Source of the DNA: Siphonodentalium dalli
Taxonomy: Eukaryota; Mollusca; Scaphopoda; Gadilida; Siphonodentaliidae
Direction: 5' to 3'
Length of the DNA stretch: 64,000 nt
NCBI GenBank assembly: GCA_032622095.1
Contig: CP136062.1
Coordinates: forward strand, 137,782,351-137,846,350
Shown piece by piece: positions 18,714 to 50,691 of this stretch (position 1 is its first letter; each line of letters begins with the position of its first letter). Below the pieces are notes generated by a model. That model saw only the letters and a list, made by a program, of their open reading frames with translations. It was not told the DNA's origin and made no database searches. The position numbers were made by a program, and so were the translations under genes.

Positions 18714-19115
18714 TCAGGACTGAGGAAATATGCAATGGTCAGTCCGGTAGCTTCCGGGATAATATAGCCCCCATGTTGGCTGATAAAAACTCGAAGAAGA
18801 TGATGTTGATGAATTGTCTTTTTCACGGTGTTCTGATAATCTGAACATATCCAGGAAAAGCCATTATGCGTATCAAACATTAAAAAAATACATATTTATT
18901 GTGAAATATTTTTAATACTTGTATTAGTTGTTGAAAATCGACCATAATCAAGATGGTTATTCACTTCAATTCAGAAACACCAGCGCAGGCCCTGCATTAA
19001 TATATTTTTCCAAAAAATATGTGTTCTTGAATGTGTAGCGGTCGCGTTGTAAATATAGAAGGCCGATTAATCAACAGCTCCAACGGAGCATGCTTCTTTG
19101 GTCCAGTGGTTAAGA

Positions 19116-19200
19116 CGCCTTGTCTCGTCACTGAAGTTAAGCATCGTCGAGCCCGGTTAGCACTTGGATGGGTGACCGGTGGCCTGAGATTTCGGGTGAT
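19116..19200 (+). ncRNA. 5S rRNA-like sequence in the left LTR
   Basis: AAGTTAAGCATCGTC (19134-19148) corresponds to the 5S A box. CGGTTAGCACTTGGATGGG followed by TGACCG (19154-19178) is an almost perfect 5S C box. The upstream part (ACGCC, TCTCGTC) also matches the 5S 5' half with gaps. A pol III internal promoter could therefore be present. The 5S 3' end is diverged, so it is not a functional rRNA. Confidence 0.8.
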
Positions 19201-19437
19201 GCCAACTTTCGGTGCGACTCCCGCATTCCACCCTTCTCCCGTTACACTGGGGGCTCGTCCGGTCCTCAGAGTCTGTGTCATGGTGCGACCGCTCTGAGAG
19301 AGGAACTTGGGTGAGGATCACTTGGTGGTGAACCTCAAAACGAGGAAGGGAGGAATGTAGCGGTCGCGTTGTAAATATAGAAGGCCGATTAATCAACAGC
19401 TCCAACGGAGCATGCTTCTTTGGTCCAGTGGTTAAGA

Positions 19438-19522
19438 TGCCTTGTCTCGTCACCGAAGTTAAGCAACGTCGAGCCCGGTTAGCACTTGGATGGGTGACCG
19501 GTGGCCTGAGATTTTGGGTGTT
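19438..19522 (+). ncRNA. 5S rRNA-like sequence in the right LTR
   Basis: As in the left LTR but closer to 5S consensus: ACCGAAGTTAAGCAACGTC (19452-19470) then the C box at 19476-19500. The differences between the two LTR copies fall partly in this block. Confidence 0.8.
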
Positions 19523-19639
19523 GCCAACTTTCGGTGCGACTCCCGCATTCCACCCTTCTCCCGTTTCATACCGGTACACATAGTGTTTTTTCAAATCGCT
19601 CAGATTAGCCATTGAACACTGCGAAAATGACAATTAACT

Positions 19640-24667: not shown

Positions 24668-25409
24668 AGTTTTTAACATAATTTCAGTTGTTAGGCTATA
24701 TAAGAAATCGCAAATTTTGAAACAAAAATGAGGCTGTAAAGAAATCAAAGTGAATACCAATGGTATGATGGCTGAAATTTAGAAAAATCGTAGAGTACAT
24801 GTACGTCTAGATATCGGGGCTGGCACAAAAAGCACTCGAAGGCTTAATTCCATTGTGGTCCCCTGATATGCTACCGGCCACGAGGCAGACAATATAGCTA
24901 CCACGAAATTCTCCATTTTGATACTAAAAAATAATGGTAATGACATCAATGTTAATATATTGATATTTTACATTGATAAAGCCATCATCAATGTGGATAA
25001 TATAATTTATCATCATAAGTGCTACATTTACAAGTAATCTTATGATTGTGAATATGTTTATTTTAAAAGAAATGTTCTTTTCACCGACCAGGTGGATGAG
25101 ACGCCTGGCAGATCCATTTAACATAACAAATCTGACACTCGTCTCATTCACCTGGTCTATGAATACTGACCGATATAATATTATATTAATATTAATGCTG
25201 CTGCAAGAGGTGCCTGTGGGTTCTGTGTCGGTTCGGTGACTTTGTAAATGATGGATACGCACCACTGCATATACGCACCACTGCCATGTATGGCCGGTTT
25301 TGGACTGGTCTGTCCATGACCGAAAGATGGAAACCCGAAATACAGGCAGCAGTAACAATATATGCAGAGATGAGTAATTGATTGGCAAAATTTTGGTCAC
25401 AGTTTCAAT

Positions 25410-25940
25410 TCAGTAGTACAGAAAGGGATCTTCCTCTCGGTCCTTCAGTTTAGATAAGAGATGTTTTTTTATACAAAATTTCCGGTACTTGATGTCAATG
25501 GGTAGATGTACAGTTTTGTCAAGTCTATTCCAGAGTCTTATTCCTGTGTAGAAAAAAGACTTTTTCCCATAACAACTTACATGAGGGAGGATGAATTTCA
25601 GTTTACCTGACCGGGTTTCAGATTGATCAGCCTCATTGTCCGAAACATTTATATCCCCTTCTTTATTTGATCGTTTGAAATGTTCATTAAAATATACTGG
25701 GGCTTGCTTATCTGAGATCTTCAAAACCATTGTCAATTTCCTAAAGTTAACTCTTTCACATACCGGCAGCCAATCTACTTTTAGAAATTCCGAATAGCCA
25801 ATATGTGTCCTACAATTTAGATCTAAAATGTATCTTACTAGCCTATTCTGGGTTGCTTGTAATCGGATCTTTGTTCTTTGCGTTAGACTAGTGTACCAAA
25901 AGCTTGAACTATAGTCAAAATGACATTGAATGAGGGCCAC
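25410..25940 (-). pseudogene. LINE A, RT C-terminal region
   Basis: Contains F-D-Y-S-S-S-F-W-Y, Q-N-R-L-V-R-Y-I-L and L-W-N-R-L-D, typical of the post-RT segment of CR1-like proteins. It ends at TGA/TAG near 25410, followed by the 3' UTR. Confidence 0.8.
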
Positions 25941-26355
25941 GGATAGTTCTTTTGCAGTATTGGTTCAGGTAAGATGCCTTTCTGTACAAGAATTTCAACT
26001 TAGAGTTTGCCTTCTGCAACATGTGTGCTACCATTAGCTCACCATTAAGATGGTGGTCTAAAATGGCCCCGAGATATGTTACGGAGTCACTGGGTCTGAT
26101 GCTCACGCCATCACAGCAAACACTCAGCTGGGATTTATTTTTCAATTTATGTGGTGATCCGAAAAGAATTGATTCTGTTTTTCCCAGGTGTAAAGATAGT
26201 TTATTATCCACCAGCCAAGCGCTCAGTTTGCTCAGTTCTACGCTGAGAGTTTGTTCAATGATGTGCACATCAGATCCAGCGACAATAAGGGCAGAGTCAT
26301 CTGCATATAAGAGGAGTTGACAAGACACAGCCATGGAAGCATCGTTAACATACAT
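25915..26355 (-). pseudogene. LINE A, RT catalytic segment
   Basis: Has the catalytic Y-A-D-D-S box and K-L-S-L-H-L-G-K-T-E and T-Y-L-G-A-I-L-D motifs. It is separated from the upstream RT half by a 125-bp MITE and from the C-terminal part by a frameshift near 25925. Confidence 0.85.
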
Positions 26356-27390: not shown

Positions 27391-28416
27391 TTTCAATGAT
27401 TTCCATAGCTCTTTAGGTCTGTTTCTATTTGCATCTAATTGTTGGGTAAAATATGTTAACTTTGCATCCCGTATCATATGTTGGGCTTTATTTCTCAGGT
27501 TTTTATAAGACTCCAAGTCAGTAATTTCTTTTGACTTTCTGTATTTATGAAGCATTAAGTTTCTATCTTTAATAGTTGTTAGAATGTCTGAGCTCATCCA
27601 TTCCTCGGTACCCCCCTTTATCCTAACATCTTTCATAGGTGAAATATCATTTATCACGGATAGCAGATTCTTTTTAAAGAGAAGCCAGGCCTGTGTAACA
27701 TCATTACAACAAATGACTTCCATCCAGTCCACCTGTGTTTGCAGTTTATCACAAAAATCTGAAATTGAGTAGTTCTTGAGACTACGAGTCTTTATTGTGT
27801 TATGCTCATATGATCTTGCTTTAGTCTTCTTTCAATTGCAAAAAATCATGCTGTGATCACTTAGGCCAATGTCAATGACACCGGACTGTGTGATCATAGA
27901 AGGATCTGAGGCGAAAATTAAGTCAATAAGTGAGGAAGAGTTTTGACTAATTCTGGTAAAGTCTTTTATTAATTGACTAAGGCTAAAGAGCCTTTTGATA
28001 GTATCAACTTTCTTATGAAGGGAACTGTGAGTTGACTTGTTTGAGACATCAACGTTAAAATCACCCAAAAGAATTACCTCAGAATCTATGAAGTCATTTT
28101 CGAGGCCAAGCTTCTCAAGTTTATCAAAGAAATCATACTGTCTTGGTGGGCGATACCCTACCCCAATCAATAAGGGTTTACTCTTGGGGAAAAGTATGTC
28201 TACCCAGCATGCTTCTATACCCTCTGTGGTTAGGCTATCTCTAACATTAAAATTCAAAGAATCATGTATATAGAGACATACACCTCCGCCTTGTCTATTA
28301 CGGTCTTTACAAATGACAGAATATTTATCAATCTTGATTTCAGAATTTGTTACAGATGGATCTTTAGAACCAGGTTTCAGAAAATGCCAACATTTTTGCC
28401 TTTGATTCTTCCGCAA
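27373..28416 (-). pseudogene. LINE A, AP endonuclease and linker
   Basis: 28416-27832 encodes the APE core: G-G-G-V-C-L-Y-I, G-V-G-Y-R-P-P, L-L-G-D-F-N-V-D and the catalytic S-D-H-S. 27732-27373 is the helical linker to the RT. One stop (near 27831) and one frameshift against the upstream PHD ORF (near 28375). Confidence 0.85.
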
Positions 28417-28936
28417 AATATCGGAGTTCGTCGATCTTATGTAAAATACTGCGGCAATTAAGATGAATCACTTTAAGACCATTTGATTTGAAAATATCAT
28501 ATGACATGTCGTGCAAATTGATGTTGATTGATTCGTTTGCGTCAATGAGTGTTTCCGACTGCAAGTCAATGACATCTTCATCAGAACAGTTTAGACCGGG
28601 TAGTTCTTTAAACAAACACGGAGTACAGCGAAAGTTCAGGTCTTCGGGGAACTCTTGATAGTGGTGGTACTTCGTATTGTTTATTCCACAGCATCTTGTG
28701 TGCGTCCAGATTCCACATCCATCACAGTCAACGGCTTTACTTGATTTTATAACGCCTTTTGAACAGACGGAGCATGGGTATTTGAGAGTTCTTCCACCTG
28801 GAACGTGCGTCGAGTTTCCCACGGCAGCGGCCAACTGAGTAAGGGCAATACATAACCAAGACAGTCCCAACATTGTCGATAAAGTTAGAACAAATCCTAA
28901 AGTTTGTTGAAGAATTTTCACATGTTGCAGCAGCAA
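28364..28936 (-). pseudogene. LINE A, PHD finger and start of endonuclease
   Basis: A C-x2-C ... C-x2-C ... H-x2-C ... C-x2-C pattern (P-C-S-V-C, D-C-D-G-C, W-T-H-T-R-C, F-R-C-T-P-C) is a C4HC3 PHD finger at residues ~53-106. After it comes the APE start L-K-V-I-H-L-N-C-R-S and F-S-E-T-W. PHD fingers in ORFs of CR1/L2 elements are known and are thought to bind chromatin or nucleic acid. Confidence 0.8.
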
Positions 28937-29994: not shown

Positions 29995-31812
29995 CAACTC
30001 CTCTTATATGCAGATGACTCTGCCCTTATTGTCGCTGGATCTGATGTGCACATCATTGAACAAACTCTCAGCGTAGAACTGAGCAAACTGAGCGCTTGGC
30101 TGGTGGATAATAAACTATCTCTACACCTGGGAAAAACAGAATCAATTCTTTTCGGATCACCACATAAATTGAAAAATAAATCCCAGCTGAGTGATTGCTG
30201 TGATGGCGAGAGCATCAGACCCAGTGACTCCGTAACATATCTCGGGGCCATTTTAGACCACCATCTTAATGGTGAGCTGATGGCAGCACACATGTTGCAG
30301 AAAGCAAACTCTAAGTTGAAATTCTTGTACAGAAAGGCATCTTACCTGAACCAATACTGCAAAAGAACTCTATCCTTGGCCCTTATTCAATGTCATTTTG
30401 ACTATAGTTCAAGCTTTTGGTACACTAGTCTAACGCAAAGATCCGATTACAAGCAACCCAGAATAGGCTAGTAAGATACATTTTAGATCTAAATTGTAGG
30501 ACACATATTGGCTATTCGGAATTTCTAAAAGTAGATTGGCTGCCGGTATGTGAAAGAGTTAACTTTAGGAAATTGACAATGGTTATGAAGATCTCAGATA
30601 AGCAAGCCCCAGTATATTTTAATGAACATTTCAAACGATCAAATAAAGAAGGGGATATAAATGTTTCGGACAATGAGGCTGATCAATCTGAAACCCGGTC
30701 AGGTAAACTGAAATTCATCCTCCCTCATGTAAGTTGTTATGGGAAAAAGTCTTTTTTCTACACAGGAATAAGACTCTGGAATAGACTTGACAAAACTGTA
30801 CATCTACCCATTGACATCAAGTACCGGAAATTTTGCATAAAAAAACATCTCTTATCTAAACTGAAGGACCGAGAGGAAGATCCCTTTCTGTACTACTGAA
30901 TTGAAACTGTGACCAAAATTTTGCCAATCAATTACTCATCTCTGCATATATTGTTACTGCTGCCTGTATTTCGGGTTTCCATCTTTCGGTCATGGACAGA
31001 CCAGTCCAAAACCGGCCATACATGGCAGTGGTGCGTATATGCAGTGGTGCGTATCCATCATTTACAAAGTCACCGAACTGACACAGATCCCACAGGCACC
31101 TCTTGCAGCAGCACTAATATTAATATAATATTATATCGGTCAGTATTCATAGACCCGGTGAATGAGACGAGTGTCAGACTTGTTATGTTAAATGGATCTG
31201 CCAGGGGTCTCATCCACCTGGTCGGTGAAATGATCATTTCTTTTAAAATAAACATATTCACAATCATAAGATTACCGGTACTTGTAAATGTAGCACTTAT
31301 GATGATAAATTATTTTATCCACATTGATGATGGCTTTATCAATGTAAAATATCAATATATTAACATTGATGTCATTACCATTATTTTTTAGTATCAAAAT
31401 GGAGAATTTTGTGGTAACTATATTGTCTGCCTCGTGGCCGGTAGCATATAAGGGGACCACAATGGAACAATGGAATTAAGCCTTCGAGTGCTTTTTGTGC
31501 CATCCCCGATATCTAGCCGTACATGTACACTACGATTTTTTTTCTAAATTTCAGCCATCAATGCATCATATCATTGGTAATGGTATTCACTTTGACTTCT
31601 TTACAGCCTCATTTTTGTTTCAAAATTTGCGATTTCTTATATAGCCTAACAACTAAAATTATGTTAAAAACTCCTTTTTATTTGCTTGTAATTTATTATA
31701 TTTGTAACCTGTTAAAACAATATAGATTATGGTGTATTATATACGTGTACTAGTATGTCTTTATAATTTATATAAAAAAAAAATCAAATAAAAAAAAATC
31801 AAATCAAATCAA
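29995..31812 (+). mobile_element. CR1/L2-like LINE 'B', 5'-truncated, opposite orientation
   Basis: Starts abruptly just before the Y-A-D-D box and runs through the RT C-terminus (30046-30471, 30573-30899, one frameshift between) and 3' UTR. It ends in AATC/CAAAT repeats after an A-rich run (31772-31812). 1.65 kb is nearly identical to 24668-26319 in inverse orientation. Typical 5' truncation. Its tail ends 55 bp from the MED10 exon 1 donor. Confidence 0.9.
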
Positions 31813-42785: not shown

Positions 42786-43421
42786 TTATCCGAGCAGCAA
42801 CAGTACTGGACAGTGATACCTAATTATGTTGTCGAATATGTTGCCAGGAACACAAGGGGAATCAACAATATCAGGGTTGCTAGTCATGAGCAAGTCGAGA
42901 ATAGATGAGGAATTTTCAGTAAAATGCGTTTTATCAGCGACCAGTTGGGTCAGACCTCGTTCGCTACATATGCCGTTTATTTTACCATTACCGTTGTGTA
43001 CATAGTTTTCATTGAAATCTCCACCTATTATGACATCCAGGTCGCTATCGCGCGCAAGGGAAATGTTATCATTAAATTTCGTCCACATGCTTGCGGGGGA
43101 GTTGGGAGGGCCATAAAAGCATCCTGCAAGACAACGTTTTGTGTTAATTGTAACCTCTATCCAGATAGTTTCTACTTCGACACTGTCAAGATCATCGCGT
43201 ATTGTGAATGGTATAGTGTCGCGAACGTAAATACACACACCCCTCCTGTTCTGCCATCTTTCCTGTCTTTGCGGGCAGGATCGTGGTAGCCAGGAAGATG
43301 GATTTCTGAATCCGAGATAGAATGATCGAGCCATGATTCGGCTAATAGACATAATTATGTCGTACTCGCCTCTAGATGTTTCGGCCGCAAGTATATCTAA
43401 TTTATTTCTGATACTCTGCAT
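42786..43421 (-). pseudogene. LINE C AP endonuclease
   Basis: R-N-K-L-D-I-L near the start, R-R-G-V-C-I-Y-V, A-G-C-F-Y-G-P-P-N-S and I-G-G-D-F-N-E identify an APE domain; S-S-S-I-L-D-L-L-M-T and Y-H-C-P-V (catalytic D of D-H changed to Y) follow. A deletion/frameshift near 43350 has removed part of the E-S-W motif. Confidence 0.8.
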
Positions 43422-48952: not shown

Positions 48953-50691
48953 ATAGTGCGAAAGACAGGGCTAGTTTAGACAAAGAAACAAATTCGTTTG
49001 GACTTAATTTGCTAAAACTCTGTAAATCGGCGTCCATGAGAATAGTGAATGGTCGCAAACCTGGTGATTCTTTTGGAAATTATACGAGTTTTCAGTATAA
49101 TGGTGCGAGTTTAGTGGATTACGTGATTATTTCAGACAGATATTTATCCGATGTGAGTTACTTTTGTGTTAAACAACCTACTGAATATTCAGATCACTGT
49201 CAACTAGCAATACATATGAACATAAAGTCACAAGATGTCAATAAAACTGCATTTAAATATCATTATACGAAACCGCACGGTGTTGCTAAATGGTCTCGAG
49301 ATAGTGATGCTAAAGTAAAACAGGCTCTGGTAGATGCTGATATGCAACACCGCTTATTGAAATTTAGATCAAACGTATACGCACGCGATAAGAACGGAAT
49401 AGAACAAGCTGTGCGCGATTATGATAATATCGTGAATTCTGTTAATGCCACCGCAACTCAATTTGTTAAAAGTAAAAATAAACAAATGCAAAGGAAACGT
49501 AAATGGTTTGATGCAAAAAGCAAAGAATTGAAAAAACATATGAAGCACGCGAGTAAAGAAATGAAGCGATACCCTCGCAATGCAGATCTCCGAAATGAGT
49601 TTTTCGCAGCTAAAAAAACTTATAAAAGAGAAACAAAAAAGAAATCAAAATTGTATTATCAGGAAATATCGGAAAACCTGGATAATATTGAGACAAGTGA
49701 CCCTTCGGAATATTGGCGTATAATTAATGGTCTTAGACCACGAAAAGTTGAAATGAATTATTTGCACCCTGATGAATGTGTAGATTTTTTTAAAGAACTT
49801 TTATGTAAAGAAATAATTCCACGAGACGAAAATGACCGTGTGCGGGGAACGCCGCGCATAGATATAGATCAAAATATTAGCGACGAAGAGATAACATCGG
49901 AAGAAATACTAAAATGCCTTAAGCTCTTGAAAAATAGGAAATCTTCTGAAAATGGAAATATTTCAAATGAATTTCTTAAATCAGTAGTACCGGAGATAAT
50001 AGATGAGACAACAAAACTGTTCAATCTAGTGTTATGTTCCGGACATTACCCTAAACATTGGAGTTTTTCACTCATAAAGACGCTCTATAAAAAGGGAGAT
50101 CGACATGATCCGAATAATTATCGCCCGATTGCTCTGACAAATAACCTAGGTAAACTTTTCAACAAAATAATTAACACCAGGATAAATAACCACCTCGAGG
50201 AGAATGATCTGATCAGTGACAATCAGTTTGGTTTTCGGACGAATCGTAGTACAATTGATAGTGCATTTGTTTTAAATACCATTGTGAAGAAATACAAGCA
50301 GAAAAATAAGCCCATTTATGCTGCATTCATTGATTTCAAAAAAGCGTTCGACTCAGTAGATAGATCGTTAATGTTACACAAAATACGTGATTATGGAATT
50401 TCTGGTAAAATAAATCAGTGTATACGTTCAATGTATCAAGCAAGCTACATAAGTGTGAAAACAGAGGCATGCGTTGGACCACAACTTCTATCAACTATTG
50501 GAGTAAGACAAGGCTGTTCAATTTCACCCACGCTGTTTAAAATGTATATTGATGACCTAAGGTATTCGTTTGACTCGACTTGTAATCCCGTTATTCTAAA
50601 TAATCGGCCGATCAGTCATTTTTTATTCGCAGATGACGTTGTAATAATATCGGAAACGAAAGAAGGTTTACAGAAATGCTTGAATGCATGA
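48953..50691 (+). pseudogene. LINE D endonuclease end and reverse transcriptase
   Basis: Opens in the shifted frame near 48953 (first Met 49009). It finishes the APE (V-D-Y-V-I-I-S, S-D-H-C), has a Lys-rich linker, and the RT: N-Y-R-P-I-A-L-T-N, F-I-D-F-K-K-A-F-D-S-V-D, G-V-R-Q-G-C-S-I-S-P-T-L-F and F-A-D-D-V-V-I-I-S. All catalytic Asp are present. The frame ends at 50691, where about 30 codons (the usual C-x-x-W ... N-x-x-K-T-K stretch) are deleted. Confidence 0.92.

Follow-up and report, generated by a model that had tools for sequence, protein, structure and literature searches.

A gene-less LTR retrotransposon family with 5S rRNA gene-derived sequence in its LTRs in the scaphopod mollusc Siphonodentalium dalli

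A pair of short direct repeats in a 64,000-nucleotide stretch of the Siphonodentalium dalli genome (the whole stretch is called the window here) raises the question of whether an animal genome contains a counterpart of Cassandra, the plant terminal-repeat retrotransposon in miniature (TRIM) that has a 5S promoter within its LTRs (PMC10853983, PMC7215508). The initial annotation proposed such an element from the sequence alone. That the host is a scaphopod is also indicated by a nuclear insert of the mitochondrial COX1 gene (C1:108127492–108128832), which contains five in-frame TGA codons and is open for 447 residues under the invertebrate mitochondrial code; it is 97% identical to the gene of the scaphopod Siphonodentalium lobatum, and the others among the best 120 matches listed reach at most 82%.

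We confirmed that positions 19034–19568 are one copy of a gene-less, non-autonomous LTR retrotransposon, i.e., a TRIM. It contains two direct repeats of 213 bp each with TG…CA ends, which are 97% identical (six differences) and flank an interior of 109 bp, all described here on the forward strand. The left LTR (19034–19246; TGTAGC…TTACA) has ends that are identical in many genomic copies, and the right LTR (19356–19568) ends in TTTCA, where TTACA is most common among the family members. The interior (19247–19355) starts with a single C, so that the primer-binding site (PBS; 19248–19262) lies 1 nt past the left LTR. Its 15 nt are identical to the beginning of the reverse-complemented sequence of a host tRNA-Pro(CGG) gene with CCA added, and are thus complementary to the 3′ end of that tRNA. 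The interior closes with a polypurine tract (PPT) of 14 nt (19342–19355), all purines, adjoining the right LTR. The repeats, their spacing and number of differences, the tRNA-Pro-type PBS 1 bp inside the left repeat, and the PPT abutting the right one had all been reported by the initial annotation, and they were reproduced here. The total length of 535 bp falls below the 1000 bp expected of a TRIM and leaves no room for retrotransposition proteins. At the six positions that differ, the commonest letter of the family is found three times in the right LTR and three times in the left, so the differences look like ordinary mutations after insertion.

In the whole 64-kb window, no Rfam family was detected at its gathering score, and ARAGORN found no tRNA. 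The window also contains a large inverted repeat (24848–26319 and 29995–31467), the arms of which are approximately 1.47 kb long and 3.7 kb apart; they align in three pieces that are 92–98% complementary, and hold near-identical ORFs (24924–25400 on the minus strand and 30909–31391 on the plus strand). A reverse transcriptase match (RVT_1, 2.7e-33) was found at 49009–50691, endonuclease matches under the cut-off at 42786–43421, and a borderline PHD finger at 28364–28936; these three regions are likely to be the remains of non-LTR retrotransposons.

A search of the genome (2.23 Gb in nine sequences) indicated that the element belongs to an interspersed, multi-copy and fairly young TRIM family. 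The 535-bp unit had at least 44 matches (40 of the 1598 first-look candidates were scored), and 21 of the 44 scored matches, including the window copy, extended over the full span 1–535 at 96–100% identity. The interior alone gave at least 40 scored matches among 282 candidates. The 45-bp sequence at the LTR start was present 142 times with ≤ 3 mismatches, and a control with the reversed pattern gave 0 occurrences; these LTR starts are not all separate insertions, because 10 of the loci examined share the flank tgagtattaattata. The 10 loci (L063, L065, L066, L067, L070, L080, L082, L084, L085 and L088) all have the same solo LTR behind this common 5′ flank, from which we conclude that an LTR was multiplied inside another dispersed repeat. 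In 26 copies, among which three pairs have flanks in common, the two LTRs differed by 0–4.4%, with a median of 1.9%, and the family is therefore fairly recent. The junction of the LTR end and the PBS, TTACANTGGGGGCTCGTCCGG, was present at 279 places at ≤ 1 mismatch, 64 of them exact (control, 0), a number that takes in other families and Gypsy-like elements. Relatives were examined at 12 loci, around 12 of the 64 exact junctions and one place with one mismatch. Nine of the 12 loci (L103, L104, L106–L110, L112 and L113) contained related TRIMs that are 71–93% alike over the longer matches, two (L105 and L111) contained a sister subfamily, and one (L102) contained a Gypsy-like element.

Target sites were analyzed at 81 loci, an 82nd being a duplicate view of one array; 22 of the 81 had no identifiable end and 59 had both ends. 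Among 47 distinct 5′ flanks, an exact duplication of 4 bp was found at 38, of 3 bp at two, of 5 bp at one, and no duplication at six. The window copy is one of these six (flanks …GAATG and TACCG…). The copies are therefore dispersed insertions with a short duplication of fixed length, and this length is 4 bp rather than the 5 bp that the initial annotation had expected. Solo LTRs made up 12 of the 38 insertions with a 4-bp duplication, a share that is not a genome-wide figure because 29 of the 81 loci were picked for their lack of a listed partner LTR. The first 30 loci represent 29 places, two of which (L018/L024 and L029) are tandem arrays of the form LTR-I-LTR-I-LTR (I, interior); three of the 12 loci of related families (L103, L107 and L108) are also tandem. 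Recombination between LTRs would account for both the solo LTRs and the occasional tandem arrays.

These arrays are what would be expected if the family were a satellite derived from 5S, or a SINE with a 5S head (SINE3), in which adjacent copies mimic LTRs, and Kojima's proposal that such TRIMs arose from a SINE3 inserted in an LTR points in the same direction (PMC10886601). However, 27 of the first 29 places were non-tandem, single units and solo LTRs alike are bounded by 4-bp duplications, the PBS and PPT are kept, and the copies terminate in TTACA or something close to it. This reading is refuted as an account of the family, and overall we regard it as extremely unlikely; the outcome that the initial annotation had named as fatal to its own proposal, i.e., copies always in tandem arrays, did not occur. 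The TRIM reading, in turn, is supported by the many dispersed copies in the order LTR-PBS-PPT-LTR with target duplications.

The second part of the question concerns the 5S rRNA gene. The genome contains several clusters of host 5S genes (at least 47 matches scored), e.g., at C2:200.18–200.35 Mb, C9:133.5–133.6 Mb and C6:231.75–231.85 Mb. Alignment with these genes demonstrated that the 5S-like block that had been reported in each LTR is real and matches the species' own 5S. In the right LTR (block at 19441–19500, LTR 86–145), the 51 nt from LTR 95 to 145 (19450–19500) match nt 43–93 of the host 5S at 50 positions, with one mismatch, and the match stops after GACCG, inside box C. In the left LTR (19119–19201, LTR 86–168), the block corresponds to 5S nt 34–113 with indels; it has three mismatches over the corresponding core, and box C contains four extra nt. 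The right LTR is thus the closer to 5S, as had been noted. By 5S numbering and the general box limits, the span from box A through the IE to box C lies at 19457–19504 in the right LTR and at 19135–19182 in the left.

Only a part of the 5S gene is represented. With the Rfam 5S model (gathering score, 38 bits) at a permissive threshold, the LTRs of the window scored 20.3 and 16.9 bits, and among 14 further loci, matches of 20.1–23.8 bits were found at four (L113, L106, L108 and L100) and none at the other 10. A functional 5S gene is ruled out by these scores, which are far under 38 in the window and the 14 loci, and the folding of 5S rRNA has been lost. The 5′ half of 5S is absent or unrecognizable in the LTRs of nine families; an origin in that half was considered for the LTR sequence that precedes the block and found unsupported, as 15 to 273 of 300 shuffled sequences scored as well in these nine families.

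The block is shared among the families. When 15 LTRs were aligned to the host 5S, the match included box A in 12; in the LTRs of L110, L112 and L113, it began only at nt 56–72, so that most of box A is gone, and in that of L111, part of the IE is missing. In eight LTRs from seven families, 40–49 of the 52 core letters agree with the host 5S, and the middles of these LTRs otherwise differ. The host clusters themselves differ in variants, such as TACTTGG and TACCTGG at the start of box C, and in their downstream T runs; the letters CCTGG occur in the TRIM families of L109 and L112, and CTTGG occurs in the family of the window.

Tests of the conservation of the 5S promoter gave mixed results. In 57 LTRs of the family and its near relatives, the 5S block was more variable than the LTR ends: the mean minority frequency was 0.025 at LTR 87–146 and 0.038 at 147–170, compared with 0.012 at 1–56 and 0.014 at 171–213. 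Between families (nine LTRs, one per family), column identity was 0.82–0.88 near box A and the IE, equally high (0.87) at LTR 1–35 and 171–190, and lower (0.68) near box C, with segments cut approximately 3 nt off the canonical box limits. Strong purifying selection on the block was not seen within the family, and the picture between families is mixed.

Transcription of the element by pol III from the 5S promoter in its LTR is what the arrangement of these sequences suggests. From the spacing in 5S genes, the start would be expected at 19086 (approximately LTR 53). The TATA-like motif AAATATA at 19051–19057 on the forward strand (LTR 18–24) lies 29–35 bp upstream of this predicted start. In five of seven family representatives (A, B, C, D and H), the first LTR contains it at position 18; in F, variant forms occur in each of the two LTRs, and in G, the motif is confined to the second LTR. 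The same motif could belong to an ordinary pol II TRIM, in which it would direct a start near LTR 50, with the 5S block carried along passively or having some other role. The presence of AAATATA in five of the seven representatives and the position of the first 35 bp among the best conserved parts of the LTR agree with such an element, and helpers of the Gypsy-like type use pol II. However, 5S genes transcribed by pol III can likewise use a TATA-like motif near −30, and the 5S core was kept at 40–49 of 52 letters in LTRs with otherwise differing middles. The signals AATAAA, ATTAAA, AGTAAA and TATAAA were found in none of the seven representatives, which argues weakly against pol II because chance alone would produce only about one match in every two elements. 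We consider the pol II reading quite unlikely.

The evidence from T runs bears on the pol III reading. Since TTTT would stop pol III, a scarcity of internal TTTT runs counts in its favor, and eight were observed in 36 copies compared with approximately 72 in shuffled sequences. However, the deficit mostly reflects shared ancestry, and taken family by family it had P values of 0.035–0.73, so this depletion is only weak evidence for pol III. The LTR has no T run that is fixed as a terminator: 28 of the 36 copies have no TTTT at all, and the most shared position (approximately LTR 157) has one in four copies, including the window copy. The LTR sequence consequently does not define the 3′ end of the transcript or the R region.

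Sequences of the tRNA type also flank the 5S block. Upstream, TGGTCCAGTGG (19099–19109, forward strand; LTR 66) is a putative A box that fully matches the tRNA-type consensus, and downstream, GGTGCGACTCC (19211–19221, forward strand; LTR 178) is a putative B box with one mismatch to its consensus. A tRNA origin was considered for the LTR sequence that precedes the block, but there is just the A-box match and no covariance-model match; Rfam gave no tRNA match in the window or the further loci, nor did ARAGORN in the window. The LTRs of the window's family might nevertheless be imagined to have a composite pol III promoter, i.e., a hybrid of the animal TRIMs Helenus and Ajax in which tRNA-type A and B boxes bracket a 5S-type control region, captured independently in molluscs, recognized by factors of both the TFIIIA and TFIIIC types, kept in step with the host 5S, and mobilized by a tRNA-Pro-primed Gypsy-like helper. 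We regard this combination as very unlikely.

For the primer, the match to tRNA-Pro extends to 18 nt at L102, L104, L105, L107 and L111, to 15 nt in the window copy and at L103, L106, L109, L110 and L112, to 14 nt at L115, and to 12 nt at L113. Additional tRNA-Pro sequence is present in the TRIM array at L108, in which one copy has 38 nt of tRNA-Pro complement with one mismatch and its neighbor has 30 nt with three mismatches, each followed by the letters of the LTR end and the PBS again. The 38 nt (617–654 of the L108 reverse complement) recur inverted at L117 (71–108), at a Gypsy-like element; both are the complement of the 3′ half of tRNA-Pro, with a common end just short of the anticodon loop. 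Reverse transcriptase running on into the primer tRNA would produce such sequences. The use of tRNA-Pro as the primer is thus indicated by both the PBS match and the copies with extra tRNA-Pro sequence. Elsewhere in the genome, tRNA-Pro-like sequence with ≤ 2 mismatches occurred at 275 places, one of which was confirmed by ARAGORN (L116), and 93 of 100 listed places fell in tandem arrays with a period of approximately 1413 bp (C3:244762463–245606614). Matches to microRNAs and other small RNAs at L104, L105 and L108 were under the gathering scores and mostly covered hairpin-like stretches.

A candidate for the helper was found among the Gypsy-like elements. The element at L102/L114 has a gag-like ORF (PF03732, E = 0.0046, under its cut-off) with at least 150 scored matches, itself included, among 1048 genome candidates. 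The best of the others, on C4, is 61% identical in an open frame of 861 aa. Upstream of this frame (L115) are an LTR-like end, GGTTACA, then C, and then TGGGGGCTCGTCCG, the same PBS; downstream (L118) are matches to an aspartyl protease (2.1e-08) and RVT_1 (2.1e-31), the two pieces analyzed lying approximately 400 bases apart. A helper of the Gypsy type fits, because the protease precedes the reverse transcriptase with no intervening integrase match and the TRIMs have 4-bp duplications. The TRIM and this element have in common only the 3′ end of the LTR and the PBS, with no other aligned sequence of note. We infer that a Gypsy-like element of this kind acts as the helper in trans.

Taken together, these results suggest the following scheme, which we consider likely as a whole: a TRIM with a 5S promoter that is transcribed by pol III, primed by tRNA-Pro, mobilized by a trans-acting Gypsy-like helper, and inserted with 4-bp duplications. 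The LTRs acquired the internal promoter of the host 5S rRNA gene. Pol III, recruited by the 5S-type internal control region of the left LTR, would start at approximately LTR 53, and the transcript would extend across the interior and enter the right LTR. Annealing of the tRNA-Pro 3′ end to the PBS would prime minus-strand DNA, a step that is supported by the PBS match and by the copies described above; as the anatomy suggests, the PPT would then serve as the plus-strand primer, and strand transfer would be made possible by the sequence common to the LTRs. Finally, the reverse transcriptase and integrase of the tRNA-Pro-primed Gypsy-like element, which shares the LTR 3′ end, may act in trans, and their integration would leave the 4-bp duplications that are observed.

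How does this family compare with known systems? Like Cassandra as described (PMC10853983), it has no coding region, has a PBS and a PPT, occurs partly in tandem arrays, and has a block that resembles the host 5S. The 535-bp element shares the 5S promoter sequence in the LTR, but it has neither the methionine-tRNA PBS of Cassandra (PMC10853983), which is replaced by one for tRNA-Pro, nor a T-run terminator: in Cassandra, transcription is described as ending within the 5S portion of the right LTR (PMC10886601), whereas the LTR here lacks a fixed T-run terminator. The length of Cassandra is 565–860 bp as quoted by Kojima (PMC10886601). The biv-TRIM elements (Satovic et al., 2019; PMC6934838) are similarly molluscan, from bivalves, with terminal repeats of 202–218 bp, solo repeats and tandem arrays, but they are described with an interior of 77–80 bp and no unambiguous PBS, and their description mentions no 5S block. 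Helenus in animals resembles the present family as a TRIM with 4-bp duplications and a Gypsy-type helper (Kojima, 2024; PMC10886601), and some bivalve Helenus families, as well as the oyster Gypsy-13_CGi, use tRNA-Pro (PMC10886601). The Helenus LTR is described as containing a tRNA-like sequence that includes both an A and a B box, whereas the LTR here has a 5S block flanked by a matching A box and a B box that deviates at one position.

The closest system is Ajax, of 421 and 434 bp, reported from the nemerteans Notospermus geniculatus and Lineus longissimus by Kojima (2024; PMC10886601), who proposed the name TRIMp3 for TRIMs with a pol III promoter. The present LTRs contain the promoter sequence of a small-RNA gene, which is the sequence feature of this group. 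In both Ajax and the present family, the LTR has only the promoter part of 5S (box A, IE and box C) without its folding, and the elements are a few hundred bp long with a PBS and a PPT, LTRs outnumbering interiors (PMC10886601). Ajax is described with 5-bp duplications, a tRNA-Leu primer and nemertean hosts, compared with 4-bp duplications, tRNA-Pro and a scaphopod here (PMC10886601). In the window's family, the partial 5S was found, a 5-bp duplication was present at one of 47 flanks, and the PBS was not of the tRNA-Leu type. Unlike Ajax as described, several families and a candidate Gypsy-like helper were found (PMC10886601). The shared plan, i.e., a promoter-only part of 5S and LTR-PBS-PPT-LTR in 421, 434 or 535 bp, could mean that the two are one lineage, through descent or horizontal transfer, rather than independent captures of 5S. 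Against a common lineage, however, stand the duplications of 4 bp (38 of 47) rather than the 5 bp described for Ajax and the primer tRNA-Pro rather than tRNA-Leu, as well as, more weakly because 5S is itself conserved, the near identity of the block to the host's own 5S. We consider such a shared origin unlikely.

The 5S-promoter TRIMs in the literature that we found are from plants and, among animals, from two ribbon worms, and no molluscan or scaphopod TRIM bearing 5S was found in the titles or abstracts of the open-access papers listed. The proposed animal counterpart of Cassandra stands as a TRIM with 5S in its LTRs, and the animal kind itself had already been described, as Ajax in two nemerteans (PMC10886601). 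This kind has been in print since 2024, and the molluscan variant differs from it in duplication length and primer. The presence in a mollusc of a diversified lineage that differs in primer and duplication length suggests, although it is no proof, that LTR elements captured 5S promoters repeatedly, with different helpers. The candidate helper and the copies that hold additional primer tRNA sequence make it testable which element moves such TRIMs, a question that is open for Cassandra according to Kojima (PMC10886601). With its occurrence in Mollusca, 4-bp duplications together with a tRNA-Pro primer, several families and a candidate helper, what is described here looks like a new molluscan branch of the 5S-promoter TRIMs.
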